Assembly: GCF_000331105.1 (NCBI RefSeq)
Contig: NC_020054.1
Coordinates: 6,017,815-6,081,814 of the forward strand
Length of the DNA stretch: 64,000 nucleotides
From: Fibrella aestuarina BUZ 2
GTDB taxonomy: Bacteria; Bacteroidota; Bacteroidia; Cytophagales; Spirosomataceae
Reading direction: 5' to 3'
Part shown: piece after piece, positions 1 to 64,000 of the stretch
Position numbering within the stretch: position 1 is the stretch's first letter
Layout: each line of letters starts with the position of its first letter
Translations under genes and position numbers: made by a program
The notes under the pieces: model-generated
What the model was told of the DNA's origin: nothing
Databases searched by the model: none
The model's input: the letters and a program-made list of their open reading frames with translations, nothing else

Positions 1-682
1 CCCGAGCGGCCGATTGACAACAGCGTTCCCCGGCTCAACCAGCGATTCGGCTAGCGATTCAGTCCGTTTTCGGGAGTATGTCAGCGATCCGGCCAATCCT
101 GTACCGTACTCCGAAGCGTCCCTGACCGCCGAGCCGGATTTCAGTGCGTTGTTTAGTTATATGTCGGCCGATCAGCGGTTTGCCAGCGCCCGACCGGATG
201 TGCTTACGTTTCAGACCGATACCTTATCCGACAACCTGACCGTGGGGGGCGAAATCACGGTTCGGTTACAGGTCAGTAGTACCGGTACCGATGCTGACTG
301 GGTGGTGAAACTCATCGACGTGTACCCGCCCAACGAGCCGAACCATCCTTACCTGCCCAACCCCCAAACCCAGTTGGCCAACTACCAGCAGTTGGTCCGA
401 GCTGATGTGCAACGCAGCCGGTTTCGCCGGAGTTTCGAGAAGCCCGAACCATTGACGCCCAATCGGGTCACCGATGTAACGTTTCGCCTGCCCGACGTAC
501 TGCATACGTTCAAAAAGGGGCATCGTGTTATGATACAGGTGCAGAGCAGTTGGTTTCCGCTGATTGACCGCAACCCACAAACGTTCGTCAACTCGATCTA
601 CAAAGCCAAACCAACCGATTTCCGGTCGGCTCGGCATCGAGTCTATGGCCGTTCGGCTATCGAGGTAACCCTTCTCCCTTAA
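1..682 (+). CDS. CocE/NonD family hydrolase, C-terminal part (partial)
   Basis: This is the C-terminal portion of a serine hydrolase of the CocE / X-Pro dipeptidyl-peptidase (S15) type. The frame is open from base 2, so the gene begins upstream of the window; the TTG at 14 is only an internal codon. The visible 226 residues match the jelly-roll C-terminal domain: YVSDPANPVPY near the beginning, then RPDVLTFQTDTL and a run of beta-strand-like sequence ending in a conserved HRVYGRSAIEVTLLP-like tail. The alpha/beta-hydrolase domain with its Ser-Asp-His triad lies outside. These enzymes cleave acyl or peptide bonds and are often exported. The next gene starts 3 bases after the stop, so the two are probably cotranscribed. 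Confidence 0.85.
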   Translation, partial: PSGRLTTAFPGSTSDSASDSVRFREYVSDPANPVPYSEASLTAEPDFSALFSYMSADQRFASARPDVLTFQTDTLSDNLTVGGEITVRLQVSSTGTDADWVVKLIDVYPPNEPNHPYLPNPQTQLANYQQLVRADVQRSRFRRSFEKPEPLTPNRVTDVTFRLPDVLHTFKKGHRVMIQVQSSWFPLIDRNPQTFVNSIYKAKPTDFRSARHRVYGRSAIEVTLLP

Positions 683-685
683 ATT

Positions 686-1621
686 ATGCAAACACCGATT
701 TACATTGTCGGGGCGGGGGCCATTGGGATGACCCTGGCCGTTCTGCTGCGGCAGGCGGGCAAAAACGTCGTCTTACTACGGAGTCGCCCGACGAGTCAGG
801 CAGAAGCCGACGTGCTCATCACCGTCGAATTCAACGACGGAACCAGCCAGACAGCCCGGCTCCCCATCGGCACGCTGGACGACATAGACCGCCTGCACGG
901 CCTTGTTTTGCTGACGAACAAATCGTTCGGTAACGCTGAACTGGCCCGGCGGTTACGGGGCAAAACGGGCGACTCCCCGCTTATCCTTCTTCAGAACGGA
1001 CTGGCTATCGAGCAACCCTATCTGGAAGCGGGTTTCCCGCAGGTTTACCGCTGTGTGTTGCTGGCTACCAGTCAGGTACGTACCCCATACATGGTCAGTT
1101 ACAAGCCCGTGGCGGCGTCACCGGTGGGTGTTATCCGGGGAGATGCGTCGGGGCTGGCTGCGCTGGTCGAGCAGATCACGACGACCGACTTTCCGTTCCG
1201 GGCCGAAAAGAACATTCAGGTCGCGATCTGGGAGAAGGTTGTTACGAACTGTGTGTTCAACGCCATCTGTCCGCTGCTGGGCGTCGACAACGGTATCTTC
1301 CACCGGAATGCATCGGTGCTGGCATTGGCTCGTGAGGTGATCAGCGAATGTGTGGTTGTGGCGGGAGAAGCGGGTATTACGCTGGATAGTCAGGCAGTCG
1401 AGCAACGGCTACTACAAATCAGTCAACGCTCTGACGGTCAACTCATTTCCACCCTGGTCGATATTAATCAGGGGCGCGAGACGGAAATCGGCACGTTAAA
1501 TCTGGAAGTGGCCCGCCTTGCCCATCGGCTAGGCAAGCCCGAGCTGGCTATACGTACCCAGCTACTCGGGGAGTTAACCCGCCTCAAAGCCGAAGCCAGC
1601 CGATCTACCACTGGCGGCTGA
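686..1621 (+). CDS. panE: 2-dehydropantoate 2-reductase (ketopantoate reductase family)
   Basis: This is a NADPH-dependent reductase of the ApbA/PanE family, 311 residues, the usual length. The family reaction is ketopantoate to pantoate on the pantothenate/CoA route. The N-terminus carries the Rossmann motif VGAGAIG (residues 8-14). The C-terminal helical domain has the family block IWEKVVTNCVFNAICPLLG (about 181-199), which holds the catalytic lysine and a conserved asparagine. It follows a CocE-type hydrolase by 3 bases, which is not a pantothenate context. Paralogues of this family reduce other 2-keto acids, so the substrate is inferred. A strong hairpin terminator lies just downstream. 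Confidence 0.82.
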   Translation: MQTPIYIVGAGAIGMTLAVLLRQAGKNVVLLRSRPTSQAEADVLITVEFNDGTSQTARLPIGTLDDIDRLHGLVLLTNKSFGNAELARRLRGKTGDSPLILLQNGLAIEQPYLEAGFPQVYRCVLLATSQVRTPYMVSYKPVAASPVGVIRGDASGLAALVEQITTTDFPFRAEKNIQVAIWEKVVTNCVFNAICPLLGVDNGIFHRNASVLALAREVISECVVVAGEAGITLDSQAVEQRLLQISQRSDGQLISTLVDINQGRETEIGTLNLEVARLAHRLGKPELAIRTQLLGELTRLKAEASRSTTGG

Positions 1622-1638
1622 CTGACATTCACCCCACT

Positions 1639-1674
1639 AAAAAAGCCTTATGCGCAGGATTCGCATAAGGCTTT
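1639..1674. terminator. Bidirectional hairpin terminator
   Basis: A perfect 13-bp stem (AAAGCCTTATGCG at 1642-1654 with its complement at 1662-1674) has a 7-nt loop. It is preceded by an A run and ends in TTT, so it can stop transcription from both sides. It sits between the convergent panE-like gene and the VOC gene. Confidence 0.85.
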
Positions 1675-1704
1675 AGGTATACAAGCAACCCTGTCGGGCA
1701 GGTA

Positions 1705-2151
1705 TTAATAGGCTTTGGGGATCACCTTTCCCTGGTTCAGCTCCCACAGATAACCGTCGGGGTCGGGGAAATAGATTTGGGTGACGCCATCGAACCGTAC
1801 CTGCTTATGGTAGGTGATATTCTTTGACTTCAGGTACGCTTCCGACTTGGCGATGTCATCGACGAACAGGGCAAAGTGGCTGGCGTTTTTGTCGTGAATA
1901 ATCTGTTCGGTATCGGGGCGGCCCGCCATCAGGTGCAGTTGCTGGCCGTTGCCCAGATCGAACCACGAACGGATGGCTTTCAGGTTTTCGGGCACGGGGA
2001 TGGGTTTGAAGCCCATCACGTCGCGGAAAAAGGCCGTGCTGACGGCCATGTCTTTCACGTGCAGCGCCATATGGTTGTGGCCCACAACACCCAGTTTATC
2101 CTGGGCGACGGCCAGTTGGGCAAGCAGCAGAAGAGGAAGAAGGAAGCGCAT
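1705..2151 (-). CDS. Exported VOC-superfamily (glyoxalase-like) protein
   Basis: This is a 148-residue protein with a signal peptide (MRFLLPLLLLAQLAVAQ) followed by one vicinal-oxygen-chelate domain. Visible features are the opening strand with HNHMALHVKDM, a central block ending in QQLHLMAG, the second half with SHFALFVDDI, and the terminal YFPDPDGYLWEL in which the last Glu is a typical metal ligand. It should be a metal-binding dioxygenase, isomerase or glutathione-transferase-like protein; the substrate cannot be told. The ATG at 2151 is chosen over a longer upstream start at 2190 because it places the signal peptide at the N-terminus. An exported VOC protein is somewhat unusual. Confidence 0.8.
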   Translation of the reverse strand: MRFLLPLLLLAQLAVAQDKLGVVGHNHMALHVKDMAVSTAFFRDVMGFKPIPVPENLKAIRSWFDLGNGQQLHLMAGRPDTEQIIHDKNASHFALFVDDIAKSEAYLKSKNITYHKQVRFDGVTQIYFPDPDGYLWELNQGKVIPKAY

Positions 2152-2247
2152 GATGCTCTGTTGCGTTTGATGTCTAACGGTTATCGTCACCCGGCGCGTA
2201 TAAGCCGGCGAGTACCGTCAGATAGCAAACCAGAAAGGGCGACCTTC

Positions 2248-4269: not shown

Positions 4270-4334
4270 AAGCGCTGTCACCTAGCACCGCGGGGGATTG
4301 CCGGTCCGCTGACGGACGCGGATCGTTGCGGCCG

Positions 4335-4751
4335 CTACTTTAGTTGGATTGAAATAGTTTTTCCGGCTTCGCCGACGACCACTTTGCAGTCGTCGTAAGA
4401 CGGGGCCGACATGCGAGGGCGTACGTTGTTGCTGAATCCATAGGGTTCGGTGGGGATACCAAACATCTTTTTGTCAATCTTGTCGTTGCCGTTTACGTCG
4501 TGGTAAATAGCCAGCGCGTAGGTGCCGGGGTCTACCTCAAACGTCGCCTGAACCGTCCGGCCCGTTGCCCCAATCGATTTGGCCTGTGCGGGTTTGGCTT
4601 TGTCGGGGAACCCGTTCTCGGAGGTGAACAGCCCGAAGCGCACCTGCCCTTTCAGCTCCCGGATGTTCTGGGCTTCGACGGTCAGCGTGGTTTTTTTGAC
4701 GGGCGGATGGGAAGTAAACAGGCTGGTAAGGGCAAGCAGGAAAATAAGCAT
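4335..4751 (-). CDS. DUF2141 family exported protein
   Basis: This is a 138-residue protein with a short signal sequence (MLIFLLALTSLFTSHP) and a DUF2141 domain, a beta-sandwich found in many Bacteroidota. Recognisable pieces are LTVEAQNIRELKGQVRFGLF, the central DPGTYALAIYHDVNGNDKIDK and the ending MFGIPTEPYGFSNN. The molecular function of the family is unknown; the fold resembles transthyretin-like surface domains. A longer reading from 4826 exists, but the start at 4751 gives the signal peptide. It is divergent from recJ with 63 bases between start codons. Confidence 0.85.
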   Translation of the reverse strand: MLIFLLALTSLFTSHPPVKKTTLTVEAQNIRELKGQVRFGLFTSENGFPDKAKPAQAKSIGATGRTVQATFEVDPGTYALAIYHDVNGNDKIDKKMFGIPTEPYGFSNNVRPRMSAPSYDDCKVVVGEAGKTISIQLK

Positions 4752-4814
4752 GGTGGAAACTGTTTTTGGATAAACGAAATTAACTTGCGTACTGATGCCC
4801 CGTACGCAAGTCGC

Positions 4815-6581: not shown

Positions 6582-6588
6582 TCAGTGA

Positions 6589-7014: not shown

Positions 7015-7072
7015 AGTCACCGATCCACGATCATCCCGAAAATCCGCTTCATCCGCGCCCCATCAATCCCAT

Positions 7073-7807: not shown

Positions 7808-7814
7808 CGCCGCG

Positions 7815-8237: not shown

Positions 8238-8318
8238 AGCGGTCGGGGTTTGTCTATAAAGCTACCTAAGTGGGTCTCGTTTTTCCCGACTCCCGATCAG
8301 CCTATCAGGTGATTTCGC

Positions 8319-10343: not shown

Positions 10344-10356
10344 GAAAGCCGATCCC

Positions 10357-23416: not shown

Positions 23417-23827
23417 TTATGGCAACGGCAGCGAAAACCGTGCATACGGAACGGGGCCTTTGTAGAAGGTATCGCTGACGGCCTGCATGCCAAACCGGCG
23501 GTAAAAATCGGCGGCGTCGAGGCGGGCATCGCACCAGAGCCTTTTCGCCCCCAGCGCGCGGGCCTGCGCAATCACGTGGTTCAGCAACAACGTACCCACG
23601 CCCTGCCGCTGGCAGTCGGGGCGGGTGGCAAACTTGCGAAACCGCGCGTCGGGGCCAGCTACAAACAACGAAATCACCGCGACCAACTCCCCATCGCGGA
23701 ACGCCCCGTAATGATGCCCCTCGTGGTCATTATCGACCTTCACGAAGTCGAACGGTTTATCGGGCCAAAGCACGGCATGGCGCAGTGGGTACGTTTGTTC
23801 GGGCGCGATGGGTTGGATGATGCTCAT
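23417..23827 (-). CDS. GNAT family N-acetyltransferase
   Basis: This 136-residue acetyltransferase has the acetyl-CoA pyrophosphate-loop motif ATRPDCQRQGVGTLLL (Q/R-x-x-G-x-G), the strand KRLWCDARLDAADFYRRFGM and a C-terminal ARFSL strand. These cytoplasmic enzymes move an acetyl group from acetyl-CoA to an amine; the acceptor is unknown. It sits just downstream, on the same strand, of the AT-rich DUF262 island. Confidence 0.88.
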   Translation of the reverse strand: MSIIQPIAPEQTYPLRHAVLWPDKPFDFVKVDNDHEGHHYGAFRDGELVAVISLFVAGPDARFRKFATRPDCQRQGVGTLLLNHVIAQARALGAKRLWCDARLDAADFYRRFGMQAVSDTFYKGPVPYARFSLPLP

Positions 23828-24063
23828 CTACAACTAACAGGATTAAATGTTTTCTAAATTCCTCCGCAAACAATGACATATATTAAAATAAATATAGAAT
23901 AGTAAATGCATCTAATTACTGAATCTCATAGCAGTTGAATATAGCTCAAAGACCAAGAACCTAAAAATAAAAACCACAATAACATCTCTATAGAATAACA
24001 GAATTACTATTTCAGGAATTTTTTAAAACTCAAACTAATCAACATCTGAAAAAAATTATCCTT

Positions 24064-25734
24064 CTAAACTATTTCCCTCAGTCGACTTTCTAATAATTGT
24101 CGCCTTAGTTCTGAAAACTCTTTGAAATTCTCCGGAGACAAATCACACTCAGGAATAAAATGTCTGACTTTAAATTCTACTTGTTTTCTATTCTCTGGGA
24201 AATTAATTTTCAACCATTCATTGAAAGGTTTATCTTGCTTTTCAATATTCTCTTGCCCAGCTAAAAGCTGAAGATTTACTACAGTATTCGAAGAGTAAGA
24301 ATAAGAGACAGTATTCCTTGGATGAATATGATCAAGGTGAGGTTTAATATCAAAATCTGGATTTCCGTATATAACAGAAAGTAAATTATAAACTCCTCGA
24401 TCTCCATAAGATGTCCACAAAAGGCTTGAGATTTCTTCTGAATTAAACGATAAATTCCTCGAAGTATTTTTCACAGAATCCTTCAAAGAAGAAAAATCAA
24501 AATCTTTCTTTTCTTTAATTGATTTCCTAAAATATATCAATAGAGCGTCTGTTTGACCGCTAAACGTCCTTTTTAAAATTGTTATATTGATCCATTTCAA
24601 AATTTCTTCCCGCTTATCTCTGTAGTGCGTAGATGTCTTAAAAGATGGATCATGTTGATAATTATGTAAATAGTATGCGATTGGCAAAAAAGCGTTATAG
24701 CTATAAATATTACTGTAATCAAAACCAAACCTATTAGCTAGAGCTACAGTCCTTAATAATGAAACTTTTATCATATCCCATTGATCTTCAATCTTACTCA
24801 TATTAACTCTATTGAAATTATCTACTTTAAATCTTATATCATTTATGTCGGCAAGATACAAACATGCTTTTAGTATCCAATCTTTTGTTATGCCCCAAAA
24901 GCCTAAGCTTCTTAACTCATCATACAAGCGGTTAATTTCCTCCCTGGCATCTTTTTTCAACCACTGTGCTGCAGCTGTAGAAAACAGCATATCAGAATAA
25001 CTCAGATTCACACCGCCACTATTAATCCTTATGAATATATTTAATACTTTATCAAGTTCGGTTGATTTTTCTAAAAAGAAGTTTATTAACTGGGTCTTGT
25101 TTACAGCTTCGTAGAGCCTATATAAAATCGAAAATGGTTCTTTACTAGCATTCAATTGTTTTTCATGTATATAATTATTAATATCAGTCAAATCATTTAT
25201 TTTCAATATATCAGAAACTTTATACCAAAACATATCATCCCCCCTAACATCTGCTTTATCTTTGGTCAAAAACTGAAATTGATATTTACCTGATTCATCA
25301 TTTGAAAGCGATGATATATTTAAATATAATTCACGTTTAAAATAATTAGCCTTTACACCTTTCCTAGTTTTGTAATATCGCTCCCCATAACTACCCATCA
25401 AACCAATATAAAAACTAGTCAACCTCTGCTGTCCATCTAAAATTGCAGTGAAGTCACCGTTCAAACTAGCCAAATTAGCTTTTTCATTATGCTCGCCAAT
25501 TTCTTCAGTGTAATCTTTAATAAACTCGTAGAATTGATAGTCATATCTATTTTCATATTTTACTTGCCAAAACAAAAACGAATTAATGGGAAATCCTTGC
25601 ATAATACTATCAAATAGCCTTTCGATTCGCTCTGGTTTCCACACAAACTCTCTTTGGATTGCTGGCAAAAAATATTTTCTACTATGTATATTTTCGACCG
25701 CTTCTCTAATTGTAATTGGAGTTTGAAATGACAT
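24064..25734 (-). CDS. DUF262 protein with C-terminal HNH-type (DUF1524-like) domain
   Basis: This 556-residue protein is related to the GmrSD / ParB-like nuclease-associated family. The N-terminal DUF262 domain has LPAIQREFVWKPERIERLFD (about 23-42) and ILDGQQRLTSFY (about 97-108), the DGQQR motif of the nucleotide-dependent domain. The C-terminal region contains HLDHIHPRN (about 468-476), an HNH-type site. Such proteins act against modified phage DNA or as other defence effectors. It is strongly AT-rich, lies alone in a 2-kb island from about 23840 to 25905, and lacks GGTACGT, all signs of transfer. The full family match and target are inferred. Confidence 0.85.
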   Translation of the reverse strand: MSFQTPITIREAVENIHSRKYFLPAIQREFVWKPERIERLFDSIMQGFPINSFLFWQVKYENRYDYQFYEFIKDYTEEIGEHNEKANLASLNGDFTAILDGQQRLTSFYIGLMGSYGERYYKTRKGVKANYFKRELYLNISSLSNDESGKYQFQFLTKDKADVRGDDMFWYKVSDILKINDLTDINNYIHEKQLNASKEPFSILYRLYEAVNKTQLINFFLEKSTELDKVLNIFIRINSGGVNLSYSDMLFSTAAAQWLKKDAREEINRLYDELRSLGFWGITKDWILKACLYLADINDIRFKVDNFNRVNMSKIEDQWDMIKVSLLRTVALANRFGFDYSNIYSYNAFLPIAYYLHNYQHDPSFKTSTHYRDKREEILKWINITILKRTFSGQTDALLIYFRKSIKEKKDFDFSSLKDSVKNTSRNLSFNSEEISSLLWTSYGDRGVYNLLSVIYGNPDFDIKPHLDHIHPRNTVSYSYSSNTVVNLQLLAGQENIEKQDKPFNEWLKINFPENRKQVEFKVRHFIPECDLSPENFKEFSELRRQLLESRLREIV

Positions 25735-25918
25735 GTTTAGCTTATTTTATCTTTCTTATTAATGAGTGAATTGGTCCGTAAAGTCCTCCTACAGTAGAAG
25801 CTGTCTTATTTGCAGTTTAGCAATAGACCTATATTACAAATATGTACACGAGCCATGTAGCAAACAAAATAAAAGCAAACTAAATGCTAAAACTATGCAG
25901 TGCATTTTCCTTGTACAG

Positions 25919-26857
25919 TCACAAGCTTTCCCACTTTGAGACGATACCGGCTTTTTCGTACAACTCGCTGAGCGATAGCTGCACCTGCCGCATGTCTTTC
26001 CAGTCCTTCAGCATAACACCCAGCGTTTGTTCGATGATGGCTTTGTCGAGATGGTCGATGTGGAGGGCGGCGAGGGCCATGGCCCAATCGAGGGTTTCGG
26101 CAATGCCGGGCGTTTTTTCGAGCCGCAGCGACCGCACCGCCTGCATGAACGCCGTGATGGGCCGGGCCAACGCCTCGTCGATGTCGGGAACTTTGGCCAG
26201 GATGATGCTCAGTTCCTTGTCGTAATCGGGATAGTCGATGTAGAGGTACAGGCAGCGGCGGCGCAGCGCTTCCGACAATTCGCGAACGCGGTTGCCCGTC
26301 ACGACGACGTGGGGGATGTGCGTGGCCCGGATAGTGCCGATTTCGGGAATGGTAATCTGCCAGTCGGACAGCAGTTCGAGCAGGAAACTCTCAAAATCTT
26401 CGTCGGCCCGGTCTACTTCGTCGATCAGCAGGACGGGGGCTTTCGGGTGTGTGATGGCCTGCAACAGCGGGCGTTTGAGCAAAAACGTATCCGAAAACAG
26501 CGTCTCTTCCAGTGCGGGCAACGTACCTGATGCCTCGGTTTGATCCGCTGGCGGGGTGGTGATCGCCCCGTTCAGTTCCAGCAGCTTCAGGTGCAGGAGC
26601 TGCCGCTGGTAATTCCATTCATACAGGGCGTGGTTGGCGTCGAGCCCTTCGTAGCACTGAAGTCGGATCAGGTCGGTGTTCAGCGCCCGCGCCATTACCT
26701 TGGCAATCTCAGTTTTCCCCACGCCCGCCGGCCCTTCAATCAGCAGCGGCTTGTTGAGCCGCAGGGCCAGAAAGACCGACATGACGATCTGTGGATCGGT
26801 CTGATAGCCCTGGTTTTCGAGCAATGTCTGAATGGATTCGCGGGTGTGTTGCGGCAT
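25919..26857 (-). CDS. coxD: MoxR-family AAA+ ATPase (CoxD-like)
   Basis: This 312-residue AAA+ ATPase belongs to the CoxD branch of MoxR proteins, which help insert sulfur into the Mo/Cu centre of CO-dehydrogenase-like enzymes. Walker A is EGPAGVGKTEIA (about 42-53), Walker B is VLLIDEVDRADE and sensor 1 is VVVTGNR. Conserved SEALRRRCLYLYIDYPDYD covers the arginine-finger region. The ATG at 26857 starts the usual N-terminus. It follows the molybdenum-hydroxylase genes in one direction; its usual partner, the VWA protein CoxE, is about 8 kb away. Confidence 0.9.
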   Translation of the reverse strand: MPQHTRESIQTLLENQGYQTDPQIVMSVFLALRLNKPLLIEGPAGVGKTEIAKVMARALNTDLIRLQCYEGLDANHALYEWNYQRQLLHLKLLELNGAITTPPADQTEASGTLPALEETLFSDTFLLKRPLLQAITHPKAPVLLIDEVDRADEDFESFLLELLSDWQITIPEIGTIRATHIPHVVVTGNRVRELSEALRRRCLYLYIDYPDYDKELSIILAKVPDIDEALARPITAFMQAVRSLRLEKTPGIAETLDWAMALAALHIDHLDKAIIEQTLGVMLKDWKDMRQVQLSLSELYEKAGIVSKWESL

Positions 26858-54079: not shown

Positions 54080-54113
54080 AAAAAGGGGGTGGGTACGTAC
54101 CCACCCCCTTTTT
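54080..54113. terminator. 34-bp perfect palindrome terminator
   Basis: AAAAAGGGGGTGGGTAC (54080-54096) is an exact inverted copy of 54097-54113, with a T run at the end. The centre contains GGTACGTACC, the palindromic form of the dispersed heptamer. It should end the fucosidase transcript. Confidence 0.9.
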
Positions 54114-54127
54114 CGTATAGTTGACCT

Positions 54128-54454
54128 TTAGCGAACAGGGTGTTGCAATGCACCTAGCTGCCAGGCTATATACATGTAAAAAATACAGACAACCAGCACA
54201 GCCATGCCAACGCTGATAGCTATCAGGGCGCGCTGTTTCTGTTGTTTATCTGCGGTTCTTAACGAAAAAAGACCCATCACAACGGCAACCAGACACAGCC
54301 CGAACCCCGCCAAGGCACATACGCCAAGCAAGCGACCAGCTCCAAGTAACAGGCTACGATTGCCTATCCATTGCAGTAGTATCGTGATCAGGTAAGACCC
54401 CGCCACAAAAGCCAGCCCTAGCCAGGCTAGCGTATCTATTCTATACTTACGCAT
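54128..54454 (-). CDS. Hypothetical three-helix membrane protein
   Basis: This 108-residue protein has three hydrophobic segments: TLAWLGLAFVAGSYLITILL, LLGVCALAGFGLCLVAVVMG and ALIAISVGMAVLVVCIFYMY, with short loops. No family is recognised. It starts two bases after the ilvA stop and is probably cotranscribed with it. Confidence 0.7.
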   Translation of the reverse strand: MRKYRIDTLAWLGLAFVAGSYLITILLQWIGNRSLLLGAGRLLGVCALAGFGLCLVAVVMGLFSLRTADKQQKQRALIAISVGMAVLVVCIFYMYIAWQLGALQHPVR

Positions 54455-54456
54455 GG

Positions 54457-55722
54457 TCAGATCAGAAACTGGAAGAGGTCCGGTTTGTCGTTGACGAGTT
54501 CGAAGACAATGCCCTGCGCTTTCATCCGGTCGATGAGGGGTTCAAAATCGTCGCGATGTTTCAGTTCAATCCCCACCAGCGCCGGTCCTGTTTCGCGGTT
54601 GGTTTTCTTGACGTATTCGAAACGTGTAATGTCGTCGTTAGGTCCGAGCACGTTCAGGAAATCGCGGAAAGCGCCCGACCGCTGCGGAAACCGGATGATG
54701 AAGTAATGCTTGAGGCCTTCGTAGAGCAACGATCGCTCTTTGATCTCCTCCGTGCGGGTGATGTCGTTGTTACCGCCACCCACCAGGCACACCACGTTTT
54801 TACCACGGATTTCGTCTTGCAGAAAATCAAGTGCGGCGATGGTCAGCGCCCCGGCGGGTTCAGCCACGATGGCCTCTTCGTTGTAGAGTTGCAGGATCGT
54901 CGTGCACACCTTGCCTTCGGGCACCAGCAGCACCCGATCAAGGTTGCGCCGACAGATTTCAAACGTGGTATCGCCCACCCGCTTCACGGCCGCCCCATCC
55001 ACGAACTTATCGATATGGTCGAGCGGCACCACATGCCCCGCTTCGATCGATACCTTCATCGACGGCGAACCCAGCGGCTCCACCCCGATCAGCTTTGTTT
55101 TCGGGCTGAGTTGCTTGAACACCGTCGACACCCCGGAGGCCAGCCCACCACCCCCAATGGCCATCAGCAGGTAATCGATTTTGAAGTTGGCGTCTTTAAA
55201 AATCTCCAGCCCGACGGTGCCCTGCCCCTCCATCACCAACACGTCGTCGAAGGGATGCACGAAGATGCTGTCGTGTGTTTGCACGTACTGGTCGGCGGCA
55301 AAATAAGCGTCATCGTAGGTGTCGCCCGTCAGCACAACGTCGACATACTCTTTGCCAAACAGCTTCACCTGTTTCACCTTCTGGTTTGGCGTGGTGGTGG
55401 GCATGAAAATGGTGCCTTTCACGCCCATTTTGCGGCAGGCATAGGCCACACCCTGCGCGTGGTTGCCCGCACTGGCGCACACAACGCCTTTGGCCAACGA
55501 CTCGGGCGACAGCGCCGCCATTTTGTTATAAGCCCCGCGAATCTTATACGACCGCACGACCTGCAAATCTTCGCGTTTCAGGAAAATGGTGGCCCCGTAG
55601 CGGTCCGACAGGTTGAGATTTTCCTGTAAGGGCGTATGGGCCGCCACACCCCGCAGGCGGTTGGCGGCCAGATAGATGTTATCGAGATCGGGGGCAGCGA
55701 AAGGCGTGTCGGTATCTACCAC
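54457..55722 (-). CDS. ilvA: Threonine ammonia-lyase (threonine deaminase)
   Basis: This 421-residue PLP enzyme converts threonine to 2-oxobutyrate, the first step of isoleucine synthesis. The PLP lysine lies in VVRSYKIRGAYNKM (about 56-69), SAGNHAQGVAYAC (about 88-100) binds the phosphate side, and VCLVGGGNND contributes the glycine-rich loop. The C-terminus has one ACT-like region (HYFIIRFPQRSGAFRDFLNVLG) instead of two, a single regulatory copy. It starts with GTG at 55722. A hairpin of GCAGAG words lies upstream. Confidence 0.95.
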   Translation of the reverse strand: MVDTDTPFAAPDLDNIYLAANRLRGVAAHTPLQENLNLSDRYGATIFLKREDLQVVRSYKIRGAYNKMAALSPESLAKGVVCASAGNHAQGVAYACRKMGVKGTIFMPTTTPNQKVKQVKLFGKEYVDVVLTGDTYDDAYFAADQYVQTHDSIFVHPFDDVLVMEGQGTVGLEIFKDANFKIDYLLMAIGGGGLASGVSTVFKQLSPKTKLIGVEPLGSPSMKVSIEAGHVVPLDHIDKFVDGAAVKRVGDTTFEICRRNLDRVLLVPEGKVCTTILQLYNEEAIVAEPAGALTIAALDFLQDEIRGKNVVCLVGGGNNDITRTEEIKERSLLYEGLKHYFIIRFPQRSGAFRDFLNVLGPNDDITRFEYVKKTNRETGPALVGIELKHRDDFEPLIDRMKAQGIVFELVNDKPDLFQFLI

Positions 55723-55732
55723 GGTTTGTAGA

Positions 55733-55846
55733 AGGCTATGACGCAGAGATGCGCAGAGAGGACGCGAAGAGATTCACAGAGATAGTACAAAATAAGCCCT
55801 CTCCGCGTAACTCCACGCTCCTCCGTGTAACTCTGTGACATAGCTT
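55733..55846. repeat. Imperfect hairpin of CGCAGAG/CTCCGCG words
   Basis: The left arm starts AGGCTATGACGCAGAG and the right arm ends CTCTGTGACATAGCTTT. They pair imperfectly over most of 114 bases. The words (GCGCAGAG, ACACAGAG, GTGTAACTC) resemble a repeat type widespread in bacteria. It lies directly upstream of ilvA. Confidence 0.75.
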
Positions 55847-55859
55847 TTTGATCCTCACC

Positions 55860-56268
55860 GCCCGCTACGCCCGTTGGTGCTTGCCGAGCAGATGCGCCAG
55901 CGCGCCTGTCTACCAGAGCGAGCACGGGTTGAAAAAACAGCCAAATTCGCCGCTTTTGATCGGTATCGAGGCCAAATACGCTGATGCCGTTGGTGTACTG
56001 CGAGATGTTACCTGGGAAAATGAGGGCTTAGACAATAGCCAGCGCGATAGACAACTTGATGCGCTGCTTCGTGAGGAAGAGCATAGCGAGACCCAGCGAA
56101 ATCTCGATGATGCCCGACGACAGCACAACAGAATCCATAAAGCTGGGGCTACTGGGGAGCCACCTCGGCACCTGCACTTGAAACTCGCTTCATTGAGAGG
56201 TGACCGATACCGACAAACACCAGGAATGCACCCAGCATTACCTTGTAAATAGTGTGTACAATTGATGG
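55860..56268 (-). pseudogene. DoxX-family membrane protein, broken
   Basis: Pieces of a DoxX-like protein can be read in two frames. Frame one gives VMLGAFLVFVGIGHLS from about 56238. Frame two gives EFQVQVPRWLPSSPSF, then MDSVVLSSGIIEISLGLAML and ISQYTNGISVFGLD. A frameshift lies near 56184-56195, and an in-frame TAA (positions 56030-56028 on the plus strand) interrupts LALAIV before ALIFPG. The original start is not clear. Membrane protein motifs with no intact copy here show a decaying gene, probably formerly part of the region upstream of ilvA. Confidence 0.75.
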
Positions 56269-56279
56269 TTTTATAGCCC

Positions 56280-57440
56280 AAAGTTGTACAAGACCAAGCA
56301 CGTTGTAAAAGTAATAGCACCTAACGGATTACGTCTTAGCGATGGTAGGGCATTCGAAAAAGGTCAGCCCAACCTTTGGACAAAAGCCTAATAGAATTAC
56401 TAATGATGAATTTACAACTGCCTGCCCGCCATTGTCAAACCGATGTTAGCAGTTCGTTATTTTTCACTCTGTTGATTTATTTTACAAGAAAGACGCCCTT
56501 TAAAAAAAGTAATTAAAAGTTGTGGATTACGAATAAATATAGCATTACCGTACAAAAGTTGTCGGACCTGTATGTTTCAAATATACTGTCCATTGTCGAA
56601 GTGAAAGTAGCTCTGATTTTAATATTAATTTCTTCTTTCATTTTATCAAAAGTAAAAGAGAAGAAATAACGAGAAGAAACGTGAATAGTGTCACCGAGTA
56701 CATAGTCATTTTTTTAAATTTCAAAGACAAGGCAATTGAGAATAAGAAGATAAATAAATTGGCAATAAAAGTTAGCTGAACACTTGTTACATTTTGTGAT
56801 TTAAGGTTAATATAGTTCATTATTGCCGTAACGGCTAAGGCAAGGCCTGCAGAAAAAAACCAATAAGCATTTTCGTCACCTTTTTTGTAAGTTTTAAATG
56901 TCAATGCAGAATGTATAATTCCTAAGAAGAGTGTTCCCAATATTGCGATATAGTAAACCATTTCCATTGATTCAGTCGTTAGAGTTTATATCGTTTAAAA
57001 TTGACGCCAACTCAAAAATAGATGTGTTTTTGGGCCGCTTCCATAAAAGTACTTTGTTATATATTGCCTACAAAGCATCTCAATTACCAAATACATATAG
57101 CTTTCATAATCAGCCTATTAAACAATTTTATTTTATGTGAACGGCAAACAAATAGTGTGTTTACACATGCCTTTATAGTAATGGTTGTTTTTGGATAATT
57201 GCATTTACCTAGTTGAACCTTACAACATATAGAAACGATTTTTATACTTTTTCGCTAACATGCGTATAGAGTGGTGTAATCTTTATATAACTGCGGCCTA
57301 GTACTCTTGAATCAACTTGGTAACGATGCTGTAGCGTAGATGTAGAAGAGAGTGTGAATACCTACTTTCCTACTAACACCCCTTTTCAATGCATCCCTAC
57401 TCATTAGCTGCGCCCGCTTTACACTGTTCTGCAGGGAGGT
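56280..57440. other. AT-rich interval with few coding signals
   Basis: Except for the membrane-protein gene at 56638, this stretch shows no convincing gene. Base composition is far more AT-rich than the surroundings and the GGTACGT heptamer is absent. Sequences ACCTAAC (near 56320) and CGATGTTAGCAGTTCG (near 56445) lie about 130 bases apart and faintly recall integron recombination-site ends, but no integrase is present. Confidence 0.5.
56638..56967 (-). CDS. Hypothetical four-helix membrane protein
   Basis: This 109-residue protein has four hydrophobic stretches: VYYIAILGTLFLGIIHSALTF, YWFFSAGLALAVTAIMNYI, LTFIANLFIFLFSIALSL and TLFTFLLVISSLLLLI. It is codon-poor in GC and sits in the AT-rich island. 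No family is recognised. It may be an acquired gene; a promoter is not evident. Confidence 0.6.
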   Translation of the reverse strand: MEMVYYIAILGTLFLGIIHSALTFKTYKKGDENAYWFFSAGLALAVTAIMNYINLKSQNVTSVQLTFIANLFIFLFSIALSLKFKKMTMYSVTLFTFLLVISSLLLLIK

Positions 57441-57488
57441 AAAAACAAGTATCGGGTAGAGCTGGCCCGAATGCCTGCCCTACCCGAT
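57441..57488. terminator. Hairpin terminator of ilvC
   Basis: ATCGGGTAG (57451-57459) pairs with CTACCCGAT (57480-57488), and an A run at 57441-57445 becomes a U tract on the minus strand. It is the likely end of the ilvD-MT-B-N-C transcript. Confidence 0.75.
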
Positions 57489-57516
57489 ATGAGATAGACA
57501 ACTAGATAAGAAGTCT

Positions 57517-58560
57517 TTAGTTGCGCTCTGGACGCAGGCTACGAACGGCGGCACCGGCCTGCCACATTTCTGAGTCGCGGAGTTCGGCCAGTTCAACTTC
57601 CAGCTTCTCGCGGTAGTCGGGCTGCGAGTTGCGGGTGATGCTGATCTGCGCTTCGTTTTGCGTTTTCACCGAGTTGTAGAGTTGCTCGAAAACGGGTTTC
57701 GTGGCATCGCGGAACGGCTTCCACCAGTCGAGAGCACCGCGTTGGGCAGTCGTCGAGCAGTTGGCGTACATCCAGTCCATGCCGTTTTCGGCTACCAGCG
57801 GCATCAGCGACTGCGTCAGCTCTTCCACCGTTTCGTTGAACGCTTCCGACGGGCTGTGGCCATTGGCACGCAGCACTTCGTATTGCGCCGCGAAAATGCC
57901 CTGGATAGCGCCCATCAACGTACCCCGCTCGCCGGTCAGATCGGAGGTTACTTCTTTGTAGAAATCGGTCTCGAACAGGTAACCCGAACCGACGCCGATA
58001 CCCATAGCGATGGCTTTCGTGCGGGCGTTACCGCTGGCGTCCTGATAGATGGCGAAGCTCGAGTTGAGCCCTTTGCCTTCCACAAACAACCGCCGCAGCG
58101 ACGTACCTGATCCTTTCGGGGCCACCAGGAACACGTCTACCTCGGCGGGCGGAACGATGCCCGTTTTTTCTTTATACGTTACGCCGAAACCGTGCGAGAA
58201 ATACAGCGATTTACCCGCTGTGAGGTACTTCTTCACCGTTGGCCACAGTTCGATCTGGGCGGCATCCGACAGCAGAAAGCAGATGATTGTGCCTTTTTCT
58301 AGGGCTTCTTCAATCTCGAACAGCGTTTCGCCCGGTACCCAACCGTCGGCAACGGCCTTATCGTAGGTTTTGCCGGGGCGCTGCCCCACGATCACGTTGA
58401 ACCCGTTGTCGCGCATGTTGAGCGACTGTCCGGGCCCTTGCACACCGTAGCCGATGACAGCGATGGTTTCGTTTTTGAGCGTATCTAAAGCTTTCTCTAG
58501 CGGAAACTCGTCGCGGGTTACTACGTTCTCGACGGTGCCGCCGAAGTTAATCTGTGCCAT
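57517..58560 (-). CDS. ilvC: Ketol-acid reductoisomerase
   Basis: This 347-residue enzyme isomerises and reduces acetolactate or acetohydroxybutyrate with NAD(P)H. The cofactor loop is GYGVQGPGQSLNMRDNG (about 37-53), and GWVPGETLFEIEEALEKGTIICFLLSDAAQ follows. Metal ligands lie in TDLTGERGTL-like block (TSDLTGERGTLMGAIQG) and the later ETVEELTQSLMPL. This is the class seen in Bacteroidota, a little longer than the class I minimum. It is the last gene of the ilv row, followed by a terminator. Confidence 0.95.
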   Translation of the reverse strand: MAQINFGGTVENVVTRDEFPLEKALDTLKNETIAVIGYGVQGPGQSLNMRDNGFNVIVGQRPGKTYDKAVADGWVPGETLFEIEEALEKGTIICFLLSDAAQIELWPTVKKYLTAGKSLYFSHGFGVTYKEKTGIVPPAEVDVFLVAPKGSGTSLRRLFVEGKGLNSSFAIYQDASGNARTKAIAMGIGVGSGYLFETDFYKEVTSDLTGERGTLMGAIQGIFAAQYEVLRANGHSPSEAFNETVEELTQSLMPLVAENGMDWMYANCSTTAQRGALDWWKPFRDATKPVFEQLYNSVKTQNEAQISITRNSQPDYREKLEVELAELRDSEMWQAGAAVRSLRPERN

Positions 58561-58627
58561 TAGGGTACTGTATTTAGGTGTAAAAAATTAGTGGTTATTG
58601 TCTTGCTTATTGGTGCGGCGGTGTCGC

Positions 58628-59161
58628 CTAGAGGTAATAGGCCCACTCGGCCTCAGGCAGGTACTCCACCAGCCCTTTCTCGGTTTTGCCGACGGCCACG
58701 CGCCCCGACCGTACGAATTCAAGGATTTCGTATTGCCGCAGGTATTCGAAGAAGGCAAAAATCTCCTGCTCGTTGCCCGTTTTTTCGATCACGACGTAGT
58801 CGAGTCCCCAGTACACGACCCAGGCCTTGAACTGCTTGTTGATCGTCTCGACGTCGAGCGGCGGGCCGCCCAGTGGCGTTGAGAGTTTGAACAGGGCGAT
58901 TTCGTTGAATACGATTTCGTCGTTCAGGTAGCCAAAAACGGCCAGCACTTCCACGATCTTCCGAATCTGCCGAACCAGTTTCTCGACCTCCTCGCGCGAT
59001 TCGTGCTTGATGACGATCGTGAAGCGCGATACGCCCGTGCGTTCGGTTTCCGACACGGTCAGGCTTTCGATGTTGATGCGTCGCCGCGTGAAAATAATCG
59101 TGATGCGGTTGAGCAACCCGATGGTGTTCGACGTGAATACGCAAATGGTGTAAGTGGTCAT
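58628..59161 (-). CDS. ilvN: Acetolactate synthase small subunit
   Basis: This 177-residue regulatory subunit of acetolactate synthase has the ACT-domain start MTTYTICVFTSNTIGLLNRITIIFTRRRINIESLTVSETE, which binds valine in the family, and a C-terminal domain that contacts the large subunit. Its ATG overlaps the ilvB stop in an ATGA arrangement (4 bases), so translation is coupled and stoichiometry is set. ilvC follows after 67 bases. Confidence 0.93.
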   Translation of the reverse strand: MTTYTICVFTSNTIGLLNRITIIFTRRRINIESLTVSETERTGVSRFTIVIKHESREEVEKLVRQIRKIVEVLAVFGYLNDEIVFNEIALFKLSTPLGGPPLDVETINKQFKAWVVYWGLDYVVIEKTGNEQEIFAFFEYLRQYEILEFVRSGRVAVGKTEKGLVEYLPEAEWAYYL

Positions 59162-60921: not shown

Positions 60922-60954
60922 GGCGTAGGGGCGTTTACAGTTGGTTCGTGTTGT

Positions 60955-61545
60955 TTACGCAGACCGTTCTTTCTTAACGGCAATCAAAATACCCGTCGAC
61001 CAAGCCAGCCGGACGAGGCTCAGGTCAGAACGACTTTCCAGATCAGCTACCAGCCGGTCCACGTTGTCGCCATGTCCATCGGGCCAGTTTGGTTGTGGGA
61101 GCATGTCGTCGATCACATACAGACCGCCCGTTGCCAACGTACCCAGTGCGGCGTCGAGGTGGCTGTATTTGCCCGGCCAGGCATCCGCAAAAATCAGGTC
61201 GAAGGGGGCCGCGTCGTAGCGTTCCAGGTACGTGCCCGCGTCGTCGCAAACCAGCGTCAGGCGGGCATCGCTGCCCAGTACCTGGTTGGCCACGGCCTGA
61301 TAGTAAGCTGCCGTATCGATCGAGATCAACGACGAGTCGGCGTCCATACCAGCCAGCAACCAGGCCGTTGCCAGCCCCGTACCCGTGCCGATTTCCAGTA
61401 CGCGGGCTTCCGGTTTTGCTGCCACAAGCGTTTGCAACAGCGCCCCGGTTTGCAGATCAGACGGCATCGAGAAGCCCATCGCCTCACTGGCTTGCTGGAT
61501 TTCGGCAAAGCCGCTGGGTACGTTATGAACGCTGTCGTTGAACAT
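60955..61545 (-). CDS. SAM-dependent O-methyltransferase-like protein in the ilv row
   Basis: This 196-residue class I methyltransferase has the SAM-binding motif ARVLEIGTGTGLATAWLL (about 47-64), the acidic SLISIDT after the second strand, and PFDLIFADAWPGKYSHL after the fourth. The overall pattern is like the catechol/caffeoyl-CoA O-methyltransferase (type 3) family. It lies between ilvD (7 bases) and ilvB (33 bases) in one direction, so it is in the operon, which is unusual for a branched-chain pathway. The substrate is unknown. Confidence 0.85.
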   Translation of the reverse strand: MFNDSVHNVPSGFAEIQQASEAMGFSMPSDLQTGALLQTLVAAKPEARVLEIGTGTGLATAWLLAGMDADSSLISIDTAAYYQAVANQVLGSDARLTLVCDDAGTYLERYDAAPFDLIFADAWPGKYSHLDAALGTLATGGLYVIDDMLPQPNWPDGHGDNVDRLVADLESRSDLSLVRLAWSTGILIAVKKERSA

Positions 61546-61552
61546 GGCGGGG

Positions 61553-63253
61553 CTATACTTCGTCGGTTACGCAGCCTTCGCTGGCACTTTTTACATGGCG
61601 GATGTACTTGCCCAGCACGCCTTTGGTGAACGGCGGGGCGGGCTGTACCCACTGCGCGCGGCGCTGGGCCAGTTCATCGTCGGACACGTGCAGGGTTAGC
61701 TGGCGGCCAACGGCGTCGAGCGTAATAAGGTCACCGTCTTTTACCAACGCGATGGGGCCACCCTCGAATGCCTCGGGCGTCACGTGCCCGACCACGAAGC
61801 CGTGGGTGCCGCCCGAAAAACGCCCGTCGGTGATGAGCGCCACTTTGTCGCCCAGCCCAGCGCCCATGATGGCCGACGTCGGTTTGAGCATTTCGCTCAT
61901 ACCCGGCCCGCCTTTGGGGCCGCTGTTTCGGATCACGATAACCTGACCCGGCAGAATTTCGCCTTTCGAGAGGGCATCGATCACCTCACTTTCGTGCTCA
62001 CACACTTTGGCGGTGCCTTCAAAGCGTTCCCCTTCCTTGCCCGTGATCTTGGCGACCGAACCCGTGGGGGCCAGGTTGCCGTAGAGTACCTGCAAGTGCC
62101 CGGTTTTCTTGATCGGCTGAGAGAGCGGGAATACGATTTTCTGGGCGTCGAAGTCGAGGTCGGGCGCGTCGGCGAGGTTCTCGGCAACGGTCTTACCCGT
62201 TACGGTGAGGCAATCGCCGTGAATCAAGCCGTTCTGATAGAGGTATTTCATCACCGCCGGAACGCCTCCGATGGCGAGCATATCTTCCATATAATACTTG
62301 CCGCTGGGCTTCAGGTCGGCGAGCAGGGGCGTGCGGTCACTGATGGCCTGAATCTCGTCGAGCGTCAGGTTGATGCCGGCCGCACGAGCGATGGCGAGGT
62401 AATGCAGCACGGCGTTGGTTGACCCACCCAATGCCACGGTTACCGTCAGCGCGTTTTCGAGCGATTTCCGGCTGATGATGTCGGCGGGCGTGATGTTGCG
62501 TTCGAGCAGCACTCGCATGGCGGCACCAATCTTTTTACACTCTTCCTGCTTGCCTTCGTGGGTGGCGGGGTAGCTGCTGCTGAAGGGCAAGCTCAGGCCC
62601 ATAGCCTCGATGCTACTGGCCATGGTGTTGGCCGTATACATACCCCCGCAGGCACCGGCGCCGGGAATTGCGTTCTGAATGACGCCTTCGTAATCCTCGT
62701 CGGAGATGGTGCCGGCGTATTTCTTACCAAGGGCCTCAAACGCCGACACGATGTCGAGTTTCTGTCCCTTGTAATGCCCTGACCGGATCGTTCCGCCGTA
62801 TACCATGATGCTGGGCCGGTTGATGCGGGCCATCGCCATGATAGCGCCGGGCATGTTTTTATCACAGCCTACGACCGTCACGACGCCGTCGTACCACTGC
62901 GCCACCACCACCGACTCAATGCTGTCGGCGATCAGGTCACGGCTCGGTAGCGAATAGCGCATCCCGTCGTTGCCGTTGGTCATGCCGTCGGATACGCCGA
63001 TGGTGTTAAAAATGAGCCCGACCAGCCCATTCGCCTGGATGCCTTGCTTCACGTAGACCGACAGCCCGTTGAGGTGCATGTTGCAGGTGTTGCCTTCATA
63101 CCCCGTGCTGGCGATGCCGATCTGCGGTTTCTGCATATCGTCGGCCGTCAGCCCAACGCCATACAGCATGGCTTTGGCGGCGGGGTTGTCCATTTTTTGC
63201 GTCAGCGTCTGGCTAAACCGGTTCAGTGAAGTGGGCGTCGTCTCTGTTGTCAT
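61553..63253 (-). CDS. ilvD: Dihydroxy-acid dehydratase
   Basis: This 566-residue Fe-S enzyme dehydrates dihydroxy-isovalerate and dihydroxy-methylvalerate to 2-keto acids. Cluster-binding Cys lie in the opening [11 protein letters not shown], in [13 protein letters not shown] (about 119-131) and in [14 protein letters not shown] (about 190-203). The C-terminal swivel is marked by [18 protein letters not shown] and [11 protein letters not shown]. It is the first gene of the ilv row and has the shared 37-nt element 9 bases upstream of its ATG. Confidence 0.95.
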
Positions 63254-63262
63254 TTTTACTGA

Positions 63263-63299
63263 TAGCGAAATTTCGCTGAATGCGTAATCGCGCTGTAAA
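63263..63299 (-). promoter_or_regulatory. Shared dyad element upstream of ilvD
   Basis: GCGAAATTTCGC (63265-63276, inside AGCGAAATTTCGCT at 63264-63277) and GCGTAATCGCGC (63282-63293) stand 5 bases apart, as at leuA. The 37-nt block has 33 identities with 39536-39572. It is only 9 bases from the ilvD ATG, so it may be the operator or the structured leader of the ilv operon. Confidence 0.8.
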
Positions 63300-63438
63300 G
63301 AAAAGCAGAGATTTTGTTTTTCAGAAACTCAAATCACTTTTTGTAAAAAAAGACCTTTTACTCAAGTGCTTCAGGTGAAGCACCCGCCCGTTACCGATCT
63401 TTCTAATCCATTATGTACTACCGCCACACTAGACCATC

Positions 63439-64000
63439 ATGCGCTGCTATACCTATCTCTTATCGTTACTCTGTCTTCTGCTAACCGGATCTGCCTTTGG
63501 TCAGTCGCTCAACGGGTCGTGGCAAGGGGCAATGGCGCCCGTTGGCAACGCCGGGCAGACCGTTCAAGGTACGGTTACACTGCGCGTTACAGGTGAAACC
63601 CTCACAGGCAACCTCACCGTGCAGGCAAATGGCACCATCGATAGCTATACGCTACAGGGACGGGTGCAGGGTGAGCAAACGGCGGGCACAGCAACGTACC
63701 CAGCCGATGGCAGTGTGTTTCAGTTTGAGGCGGCTATCCAGAACGGAGAGTTACTACTGGCGATTGGCCAAAACGGCAAGGCATTAATGAATGGTCGACT
63801 GGCCAGAACCGCGTTAAAATCGGGGCAGCCCCAACCCGCGCGCCCCACAGCCGTTACCAAACCAGACGGCCTCTACCGTGACCCGGCCCTTGTAGGCGCC
63901 TGGCAAACGACGGCCAACTACGGAGGCGGCCTCACCGACGGTGGGTTCTACGGCAGCACGTCGTCGATTATGCTACTCAACGCCGACGGCTCCTTTGGCG
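63439..64000 (+). CDS. Exported hypothetical protein (partial, runs off the window)
   Basis: This frame is open from an ATG at 63439 to the right edge (187 codons). It begins with a signal peptide (MRCYTYLLSLLCLLLTGSAFGQ) and continues with repetitive beta-rich sequence such as TVTLRVTGETLTGNLTVQANG and LQGRVQGEQTAGTATY. It resembles lipocalin-like or adhesin-like Bacteroidota envelope proteins, but no family is certain. The start is divergent from ilvD, 185 bases away, in the region of the shared element. Confidence 0.7.
   Translation, partial: MRCYTYLLSLLCLLLTGSAFGQSLNGSWQGAMAPVGNAGQTVQGTVTLRVTGETLTGNLTVQANGTIDSYTLQGRVQGEQTAGTATYPADGSVFQFEAAIQNGELLLAIGQNGKALMNGRLARTALKSGQPQPARPTAVTKPDGLYRDPALVGAWQTTANYGGGLTDGGFYGSTSSIMLLNADGSFG

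Follow-up and report, generated by a model that had tools for sequence, protein, structure and literature searches.

GGTACGT, an abundant, lineage-specific and orientation-neutral genome word in Fibrella aestuarina BUZ 2

The genome of Fibrella aestuarina BUZ 2 is rich in YR-GGTACGT-T-G, a lineage-specific and orientation-neutral word that occurs on chromosome and conjugative plasmid at approximately 1.2 sites per kb, and the enrichment of which is all but lost from two close relatives that form a pair. GGTACGT is, almost beyond doubt, a real and selected word. Since it lies far above the chance and coding expectations and its sites tend to be kept between related species, it appears to be read by the cell. 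The best single candidate for the reader, a tentative one, is the AddAB helicase-nuclease, which would use the heptamer as its Chi.

The window, i.e., the whole 64-kb stretch of DNA that was analysed, contains 56 copies of GGTACGT and 27 of ACGTACC. These 83 sites compare with 8.4 expected from composition (56.4% GC), which bears out the 75 to 80 against about 8 given in the initial annotation. Among window 7-mers with at least 40 occurrences, GGTACGT has the top ratio of observed to expected. The sites and associated features are the following.

Plus strand, first base of GGTACGT (first 19 of 56): 1075, 2315, 2357, 3555, 4178, 4205, 5477, 6416, 8126, 8385, 8859, 10217, 10957, 11778, 13496, 13679, 14322, 15212, 17509
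Plus strand, first base of GGTACGT (next 19 of 56): 17728, 17875, 18084, 18448, 20407, 22591, 23788, 27256, 28355, 28429, 29138, 29264, 31901, 31984, 32434, 32507, 34302, 34489, 37156
Plus strand, first base of GGTACGT (last 18 of 56): 37811, 38935, 40254, 41478, 43945, 44501, 47203, 47348, 47570, 47639, 51276, 51968, 52128, 53757, 53978, 54092, 61227, 61517
Minus strand, first plus-strand base (ACGTACC on the plus strand; all 27): 1078, 1552, 11697, 12914, 20201, 20560, 21397, 21824, 22166, 23590, 26521, 27290, 28628, 35844, 36864, 37594, 39755, 41205, 44233, 48843, 52175, 53448, 54095, 57918, 58101, 61137, 63694
1075..1084: first of the window's two overlapping inverted pairs, GGTACGTACC (sites 1075, plus, and 1078, minus)
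54092..54101: overlapping inverted pair GGTACGTACC, the second in the window (sites 54092, plus, and 54095, minus)
23795..26520: word-free stretch in an AT-rich island (4-kb bin with GC 0.45)
54102..57917: stretch without the word that overlaps the second AT-rich part (GC 0.50 in the 4-kb bin)

The claim that the word is absent from two AT-rich islands was nearly right: the two stretches listed hold no site, and the 4-kb bins with GC of 0.45 and 0.50 have low counts, 3 and 2, respectively. Neighbouring sites at a distance of 3 were found 13 times in the 444 kb examined.

Over the whole genome (6,937,263 bases in 2 contigs) there are 8,209 copies, 4149 forward and 4060 reverse, whereas the reversed word, taken as the control, has 686 (336 + 350). 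This corresponds to one site per 845 bp, or approximately one per 1.7 kb in each orientation. The word also survives a codon-aware expectation, given that the sampled coding sequences contain 445 copies versus 82.4 ± 8.8 after synonymous-codon shuffling (200 shuffles). Together with the whole-genome counts, this supports the genome-wide signal first proposed from the window. Sites occur in all six frame contexts, and intergenic DNA holds 97 copies versus 17.1 expected, some of which possibly lie inside missed genes, the gene calls being those of our own script (76% coding). There is no non-coding preference, with 0.92 sites per kb in non-coding and 1.31 in coding DNA.

The full site is YR-GGTACGT-T-G. 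Inspection of the flanks of 1001 sites confirmed the CAGGTACGT and TGGGTACGT contexts noticed at the outset, with CA present in 371 and TG in 263. A YR step precedes the word in 186 of the 211 intergenic sites and is conserved between species. Because all four YR pairs are used in intergenic DNA, CpG decay was ruled out as the source of the CA and TG flanks.

Between Fibrella forsythiae and Fibrivirga algicola, 65 of 94 GGTACGT sites are in place, versus 296 of 1025 for control words (100 random one-CG permutations of GGTACGT, redrawn for each pair). BLAST pieces shorter than 200 bases and overlapping alignment pieces were removed before the counts of site conservation and of species-conserved YR. 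One further alignment comparison had pieces below 300 bases removed and a few overlapping pieces kept, and one locus-based count, which produced part of its rows, had loci below 8 kb removed. The z value of GGTACGT is 16.9, 17.1 and 39.4 in three word-rich genomes. F. aquatilis and F. rubiginis are without strong enrichment, and no replacement word of comparable strength was found in 160 kb of each, the best 7-mers reaching z of 8.6 and 6.9. Four Spirosoma carry a related form, YR-N-TACGT, of the same architecture save for a one-base change of the spacer, and S. luteum and S. sordidisoli show no TACGT excess. The conjugative plasmid carries GGTACGT at chromosomal density, and a phage-like island is poor in it.

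The initial annotation had described a twofold excess on the plus strand. This holds within the window (56 versus 27) but not genome-wide (4149 versus 4060), i.e., it is local only. That such a skew follows the direction of replication was not supported: for any choice of origin and terminus, polarity over 40 sampled pieces is at most 0.570, where random strands give a mean of 0.538 and a 95% limit of 0.555. The best value is slightly above this limit, and any link of strand to replication is at best marginal. If origin and terminus are placed approximately, 472 sites are leading and 537 lagging, and strand is over-dispersed across the 40 sampled pieces (p 3e-4). Regular spacing was ruled out, the distribution departing from exponential (KS p 5e-4), with gaps below 100 bp in excess (143 versus 100) and gaps of 400 to 800 bp short (168 versus 227). 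Support was likewise lacking for a polar chromosome-segregation signal: signals of the KOPS/AIMS type are also abundant oligomers, but they display a strong origin-to-terminus polarity, whereas GGTACGT has none toward the terminus.

In the reading that we tentatively favor, GGTACGT would be a self mark for a sequence-specific DNA enzyme, AddAB. Broken resident DNA would be spared by AddAB at the next word and passed to RecA repair, and foreign linear DNA without GGTACGT would be degraded. The spacing of the word in each orientation is such that a replication-strand bias would not be needed. The heptamer shares with the Chi of AddAB and RecBCD that it is a short, non-palindromic, genus-specific word; it differs in its density, which is higher than that of E. 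coli Chi. AddB, on which the presence of the helicase-nuclease was judged, was detected in each of the 14 genomes examined, and is sharply different in F. aquatilis and F. rubiginis, the two word-poor relatives. Of 539 own proteins, 13 matched in all four relatives; the comparison used AddB and 12 control proteins, which are few and mostly metabolic. Among the 13, none has an identity gap as wide as that of AddB, 11.3 points (next, 4.5), but by ratio of distances AddB is only the third, with 1.45 (the two higher being 1.66 and 1.57). The excess in the AddB split extends beyond two segments, and the middle part (241-720) likewise gives 34 versus 14 and 14. Solved structures were searched with AddB, as a single sequence and as a profile, without a useful match; fold comparison alone succeeded. 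The residues set by eye at what we take to be the Bacillus Chi contacts are mostly invariant or nearly so in 44 AddB (alignment A1, 44 of the 120 relatives listed, of 500).

As for the Chi-like signal of the initial annotation, AddB changes along with the word in the F. aquatilis and F. rubiginis pair, but several observations weigh against it. The AddB of S. luteum and S. sordidisoli is as close to that of the word-positive species as those are to each other, so AddB does not follow the word within Spirosoma. The co-orientation with replication expected of Chi is not seen; the putative Caulobacter Chi is reported to be unevenly divided between the strands (PMC5443536), and the lack of real polarity of GGTACGT was counted against a Chi. 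Also counted against it were the word-poor relatives, which are without a comparably strong replacement word, the spread of the AddB excess past two segments, the third rank of AddB by ratio of distances, the near-invariance of most residues placed at the Chi contacts, and the YR step, whose tolerance of all four pairs suggests reading of the double strand rather than of a single strand.

It is about as probable that the reader is instead a double-strand DNA-binding protein with a nucleoid, repair or self/non-self function, for which GGTACGT would be the candidate binding site on all long-resident DNA, plasmids included. The YR, TA, CG and TG steps would make the site flexible and kinkable. 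The frequent intergenic YR step with its four pairs, its conservation between species, the like architecture of the Spirosoma form, whose spacer is altered by one base, the lack of polarity and of non-coding preference, and the contrast between rich plasmid and poor phage-like island are all consistent with such a protein. Against it, no candidate protein was found, and its 8,200 sites would be far more than those used, to our knowledge, by known site-specific nucleoid proteins. There is an appreciable, if still minority, chance that YR-spacer-TACGT is a novel self-identity word, putatively read on the double strand, common to chromosome and conjugative plasmid, with dialects of spacer length (YR-GG-TACGT in Fibrella, YR-N-TACGT in some Spirosoma), missing in close relatives, and neither uptake sequence, Chi nor HIP.

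A DNA uptake sequence, where competent cells prefer word-carrying fragments and recombination raises the word count, is unlikely. The uptake sequences DUS of Neisseriaceae and USS of Pasteurellaceae have densities close to one per 845 bp, and GGTACGT resembles them in its equal orientations, soft flanks, dialects among relatives (to which the word-poor pair may be added) and over-representation far past composition and codon use. The lack of orientation bias agrees with what is reported for uptake sequences (PMC1939737). ComEC is present in 14 of 14 genomes, which does not discriminate between word-rich and word-poor. There are precedents in Bacteroidota, where Riemerella columbina prefers its own DNA (PMC7965970) and the transformation of Riemerella anatipestifer uses proteins unlike the known machinery (PMC8459023). 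Unlike DUS and USS, GGTACGT shows no mismatch halo on the chromosome, non-coding preference or full pilus-type ATPase. Mismatched forms and a non-coding preference are discussed for uptake sequences in the same paper (PMC1939737); here, one-mismatch words per 100 kb number 244 (own genome), 240 and 278 versus 236 and 249 in the word-poor relatives, with no chromosomal excess. Some one-mismatch words are raised on plasmid C1. In a search of 20 genomes, the pilus-type ATPase PF00437 was found as fragments only, which cover 37 to 119 of the profile's 370 positions; 14 genomes have such fragments, and 3 of them (G160, G161 and G165), none belonging to genus g1, pass the cut-off. DUF5689, a proposed surface receptor domain, has a distribution opposite to that expected of an uptake receptor, being not found in the three word-rich genomes of the genus (G000, G040 and G069) and found in word-poor F. 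rubiginis (G008). The full word density on the conjugative plasmid also argues against uptake.

Less likely still is that the word resembles HIP1 and is generated or maintained by a DNA methyltransferase, perhaps via methylation-directed mismatch repair. HIP1 of cyanobacteria (GCGATCGC) is similarly genome-wide and low or replaced in some clades; its density of approximately 1 per kb, without strong strand or coding preference, and its replacement in some clades, as reported (PMC4390886), parallel those of GGTACGT. HIP1 is, however, palindromic, and GGTACGT is not self-complementary. Each of the three genomes rich in GGTACGT (G000, G151 and G153) has the C5-methylase family PF00145, in favor of the methylation first suggested. 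This family may matter for the GGTACGT dialect only; it is also present in word-poor G152. Yet none of three methylase families is common to all GGTACGT- and TACGT-rich genomes: PF00145 is absent from three TACGT-rich Spirosoma (G158, G161 and G171), PF01555 from word-rich G151, G160 and G161, and PF02384 from word-rich G151, and these absences rule them out as the common factor.

A by-product of codon use, dipeptides or composition without a reader is highly improbable, given that, although some word-capable tripeptides are in excess (e.g., [NDYH]VP, observed/expected 1.87 versus 1.03 in word-poor relatives), protein-preserving shuffling and the intergenic excess rule out codon use or composition as the main cause, and the six frame contexts and site conservation above control words also stand against it.

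GGTACGT is placed in no known family; the uptake, Chi-like and methylation proposals each fail, or pass only in part, one or more of the features examined. Among the matches listed in a literature search, there was no report of GGTACGT as a genome signal, nor of any strong word spread throughout a Bacteroidota genome, and the Riemerella study that looked for such words gives A/T-rich words only (PMC7965970).

The word-poor close relatives, the homologous plasmid pair and the dialect pair together form a natural experiment through which the reader could be found. Were uptake true, the word would bear on self-DNA recognition in bacteria without a detected pilus ATPase. We know of no Bacteroidota Chi so far, and if AddAB is the reader, GGTACGT would be the first.

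The strong excess of GGTACGT described in the initial annotation was reproduced by counting, with 56 + 27 = 83 copies on the two strands of the window against 8.4 expected from base composition. The genome-wide signal that it proposed is likewise observed: the genome of Fibrella aestuarina BUZ 2 contains 4149 + 4060 copies, versus 336 + 350 for the reversed word used as control. In 444 kb of this genome (the window and 19 pieces) the word occurs 545 times and each of its 21 one-mismatch relatives 19 to 83 times. Codon use, which might have explained these numbers, does not do so, since the excess survives 200 synonymous shuffles of 309 called genes (211 sense and 234 antisense copies versus shuffle means of 28 and 54 and maxima of 44 and 69). 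All six frame contexts are occupied, which bears out the reported occurrence in several reading frames and both gene directions, and intergenic DNA holds 97 copies versus 17.

The word also influences protein sequence, though unevenly across tripeptides. The [NDYH]VP tripeptides reach 1.87 times expectation in F. aestuarina versus 1.03 in its word-poor relatives, and are spelled by the word in 169 of 219 cases versus 10 of 41. The corresponding values are 0.82 in both for RT and 1.19 versus 1.07 for [..]VR, and five reversed control tripeptides gave F. aestuarina/word-poor ratios of 0.76 to 1.45. The complete site is written YR-GGTACGT-T-G. Of 211 intergenic copies (844 kb), 186 carry a pyrimidine-purine step just 5' of the word (CA 95, TG 54, TA 21, CG 16); the word is followed by T in 59% and then by G in 43%. 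The YR bases are kept between species in 59/63 and 59/65 retained sites, versus 69 to 86% for the ten remaining flank positions.

The host is a Fibrella-group member of the Spirosomataceae, sharing its genus label with genomes assigned, from identical counts, to Fibrivirga algicola, Fibrella forsythiae, F. aquatilis and F. rubiginis. The closest named relatives of the protein encoded at window positions 58628-59161, which we take to be IlvH-like, are from Rudanella, Fibrivirga, Fibrella and Spirosoma (90-93%; own-genome records possibly excluded). Only three of 150 family genomes exceed the reversed control more than tenfold, all in this genus: F. aestuarina, F. forsythiae and F. algicola. F. 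rubiginis and F. aquatilis carry 1845 and 1784 copies, yet still exceed their controls (679 and 756). Among 245 genomes of the order outside the family, the maximum is about 212 copies per Mb, versus 1183 in F. aestuarina.

In a tree of ilvBCDH-like DNA, F. aestuarina branches off ahead of ((aquatilis, rubiginis), (algicola, forsythiae)) (support 0.999), and on this topology loss in F. aquatilis and F. rubiginis is the simplest history. Contrary to this tree, 11 of 13 F. aestuarina proteins are slightly nearer the word-rich pair; if the species truly groups there, a gain in the ancestor of the word-rich genomes would explain the pattern equally well. Sites are kept from forsythiae to algicola in 65/94 cases (control words 296/1025), from aestuarina to forsythiae in 9/15 (51/264) and from aestuarina to algicola in 12/25 (96/434). 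From the three word-rich genomes, retention falls below controls in aquatilis (1/29, 0/26 and 1/31 versus 82/334, 61/327 and 73/372) and is near controls in rubiginis (2/16, 7/34 and 7/37 versus 42/200, 84/459 and 86/438). No surplus of one-mismatch forms was found in word-poor compared with word-rich genomes. CGATCG contexts are almost missing from the word-poor pair (loci L109-L114 and L149-L158; ACGATCG 154 in F. aestuarina versus 2.6 scaled), a scarcity that looks like restriction avoidance.

The genome comprises 6,937,263 bases in two contigs, the window lying at 6,017,815-6,081,814 of the larger, C2 (6,775,444 bases). The smaller, C1 (161,819 bases), encodes a TraG conjugation ATPase and aligns to a plasmid of Fibrella sp. 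ES10-3-2-2. Its site density (129 sites in five pieces, 100 kb) equals that of the chromosome (119.5 per 100 kb), despite a GC of 0.530 in the C1 sample and 0.496 in the TraG piece. The YR flank is looser on C1, and the one-mismatch words AGTACGT and GGTACGG are more frequent (34 and 38 per 100 kb versus 11.5 and 19.5 on the chromosome). The ES10-3-2-2 plasmid has 104 sites in 100 kb and shares 34 of 70 with C1 over 49 kb aligned (a few pieces overlap), and plasmid stretches of Runella and Spirosoma oryzicola have 3 per 50 kb in each. On C2, a low-GC stretch at 4880001-4940000 (60 kb; L256, L024, L257) with a phage tape-measure gene and 15 sites is probably a prophage or island. Three further loci were recorded on these replicons:

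ES10-3-2-2 plasmid, L323:2626-4917 (CP155472.1 162626-164917): a Piwi-domain (Argonaute) gene with DEAD-box helicases alongside, adjoining conjugation genes.
C1, L253:8663-14474, the area matching that Piwi region: a gene for a ResIII helicase, with two ~500-aa ORFs.
Window 24064-25734, inside a word-free AT-rich island: a 556-aa protein whose start, we assume, resembles DUF262/GmrS-type defence proteins.

Elsewhere in the family the word has a dialect. TACGT exceeds codon shuffling in coding sequences of Spirosoma profusum (469/147), S. validum (307/136), S. terrae (273/112) and S. endophyticum (132/53). In the first three, whose flanks were inspected, YR and one free base precede it, giving YR-N-TACGT in Spirosoma versus YR-GG-TACGT in Fibrella. 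The excess is weaker in Fibrisoma (204 versus 128; the control word is also raised, 77 versus 62). No comparable excess was found in the other 17 sets, many consisting of one 20-kb locus; they include S. luteum, S. arboris, S. panaciterrae and Rudanella, the last slightly raised (110 versus 85, z 3.2). Three Larkinella carry CGGTTT rather than TACGT (313 versus 107, 63 versus 30, 47 versus 22), another genus-specific word at 2-3 times codon-shuffle expectation (L054, L055, L056, L118, L120, L250). Palindromes such as CTGCAG, GCCGGC and CAGCTG are depleted past codon use, in varying combinations, in most sampled species (not Dyadobacter), with 22 CTGCAG versus 176 expected in F. aestuarina coding sequences.

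Reading of the word by AddAB, as for Chi, is the best single candidate mechanism, though less likely than not. A search of 14 genomes found a PD-(D/E)XK protein in every one (open frame 985-1077 aa). That of F. aestuarina is AddB by fold, its best five Foldseek hits all being AddAB B chains (model pLDDT 77, pTM 0.56); the family profile match is weak (addB_alphas, E 4e-19, 68 bits versus a cut-off of 486). In AddB, 109 of 962 sites have one residue common to the word-rich three and another common to the word-poor pair, while the alternative splits account for 24 and 30; the corresponding figures in 12 control proteins are 117, 70 and 185 of 4521 (Fisher p 2.7e-14). These split sites are densest at residues 61-120 (distance 0.07-0.10 among word-rich, 0.28-0.33 to word-poor) and in the nuclease domain (46 in 293 columns, 721-1019), but they also number 34 versus 14 and 14 in the middle (241-720). 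The change at 61-120 seems to lie on the word-poor side, because both word-poor proteins are farther than that of F. aestuarina from each of nine outgroup proteins. Counterparts of Bacillus AddB F68, E129 and R132, placed by eye, presumably lie within residues 58-110. Passages of one study link F68, F210, E129 and R132 to Chi binding and the latch (PMC4824097). The AddAB reading is given no more weight because most residues at the placed contacts are invariant or nearly so (44-sequence alignment), AddB does not track the word in Spirosoma, and AddB, despite the largest identity gap among 13 proteins (11.3 points; next 4.5), ranks only third by distance ratio. Chi densities are reported to track recombination levels (PMC6343036), and one may speculate that differences in such levels would allow Spirosoma species to vary in word density while sharing one AddB.

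For uptake, a search of 20 genomes for PF00437 (pilus and related ATPases) gave fragments in 14, over the cut-off in three (G160, G161, G165), and none in six. Uptake may nevertheless operate where pili are missing, since transformation of Riemerella anatipestifer is reported to require proteins that do not resemble known machinery, among them a surface protein with DUF5689 (PMC8459023). DUF5689 occurs in 55 of 150 family genomes; it was found in none of the three GGTACGT-rich ones and is present in word-poor F. rubiginis. ComEC is present in 14/14 genomes; its open frame in F. rubiginis (L183), possibly shortened, is 563 aa versus 706-778 in the other 13. No tested methylase family is necessary for both dialects, because each is missing in some word-rich genomes: PF01555 in G151, G160 and G161, PF02384 in G151, and PF00145 in TACGT-rich G158, G161 and G171. 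PF00145, found in 3/3 GGTACGT-rich genomes, may supply an enzyme serving that dialect alone.

The plus-strand skew, which the initial annotation suggested may follow replication direction, is a local departure of the window, whole-genome counts being balanced; the best polarity over any origin and terminus (0.570, 40 pieces; random strands mean 0.538, 95% limit 0.555) is a marginal excess far below the level of a polar signal. Uptake sequences, Chi, HIP1 and KOPS each have at least one tested feature that GGTACGT lacks, and it is therefore assigned to none of them. The word is real, under selection and spread across the genome; it has dialects, and some close relatives are poor in it.
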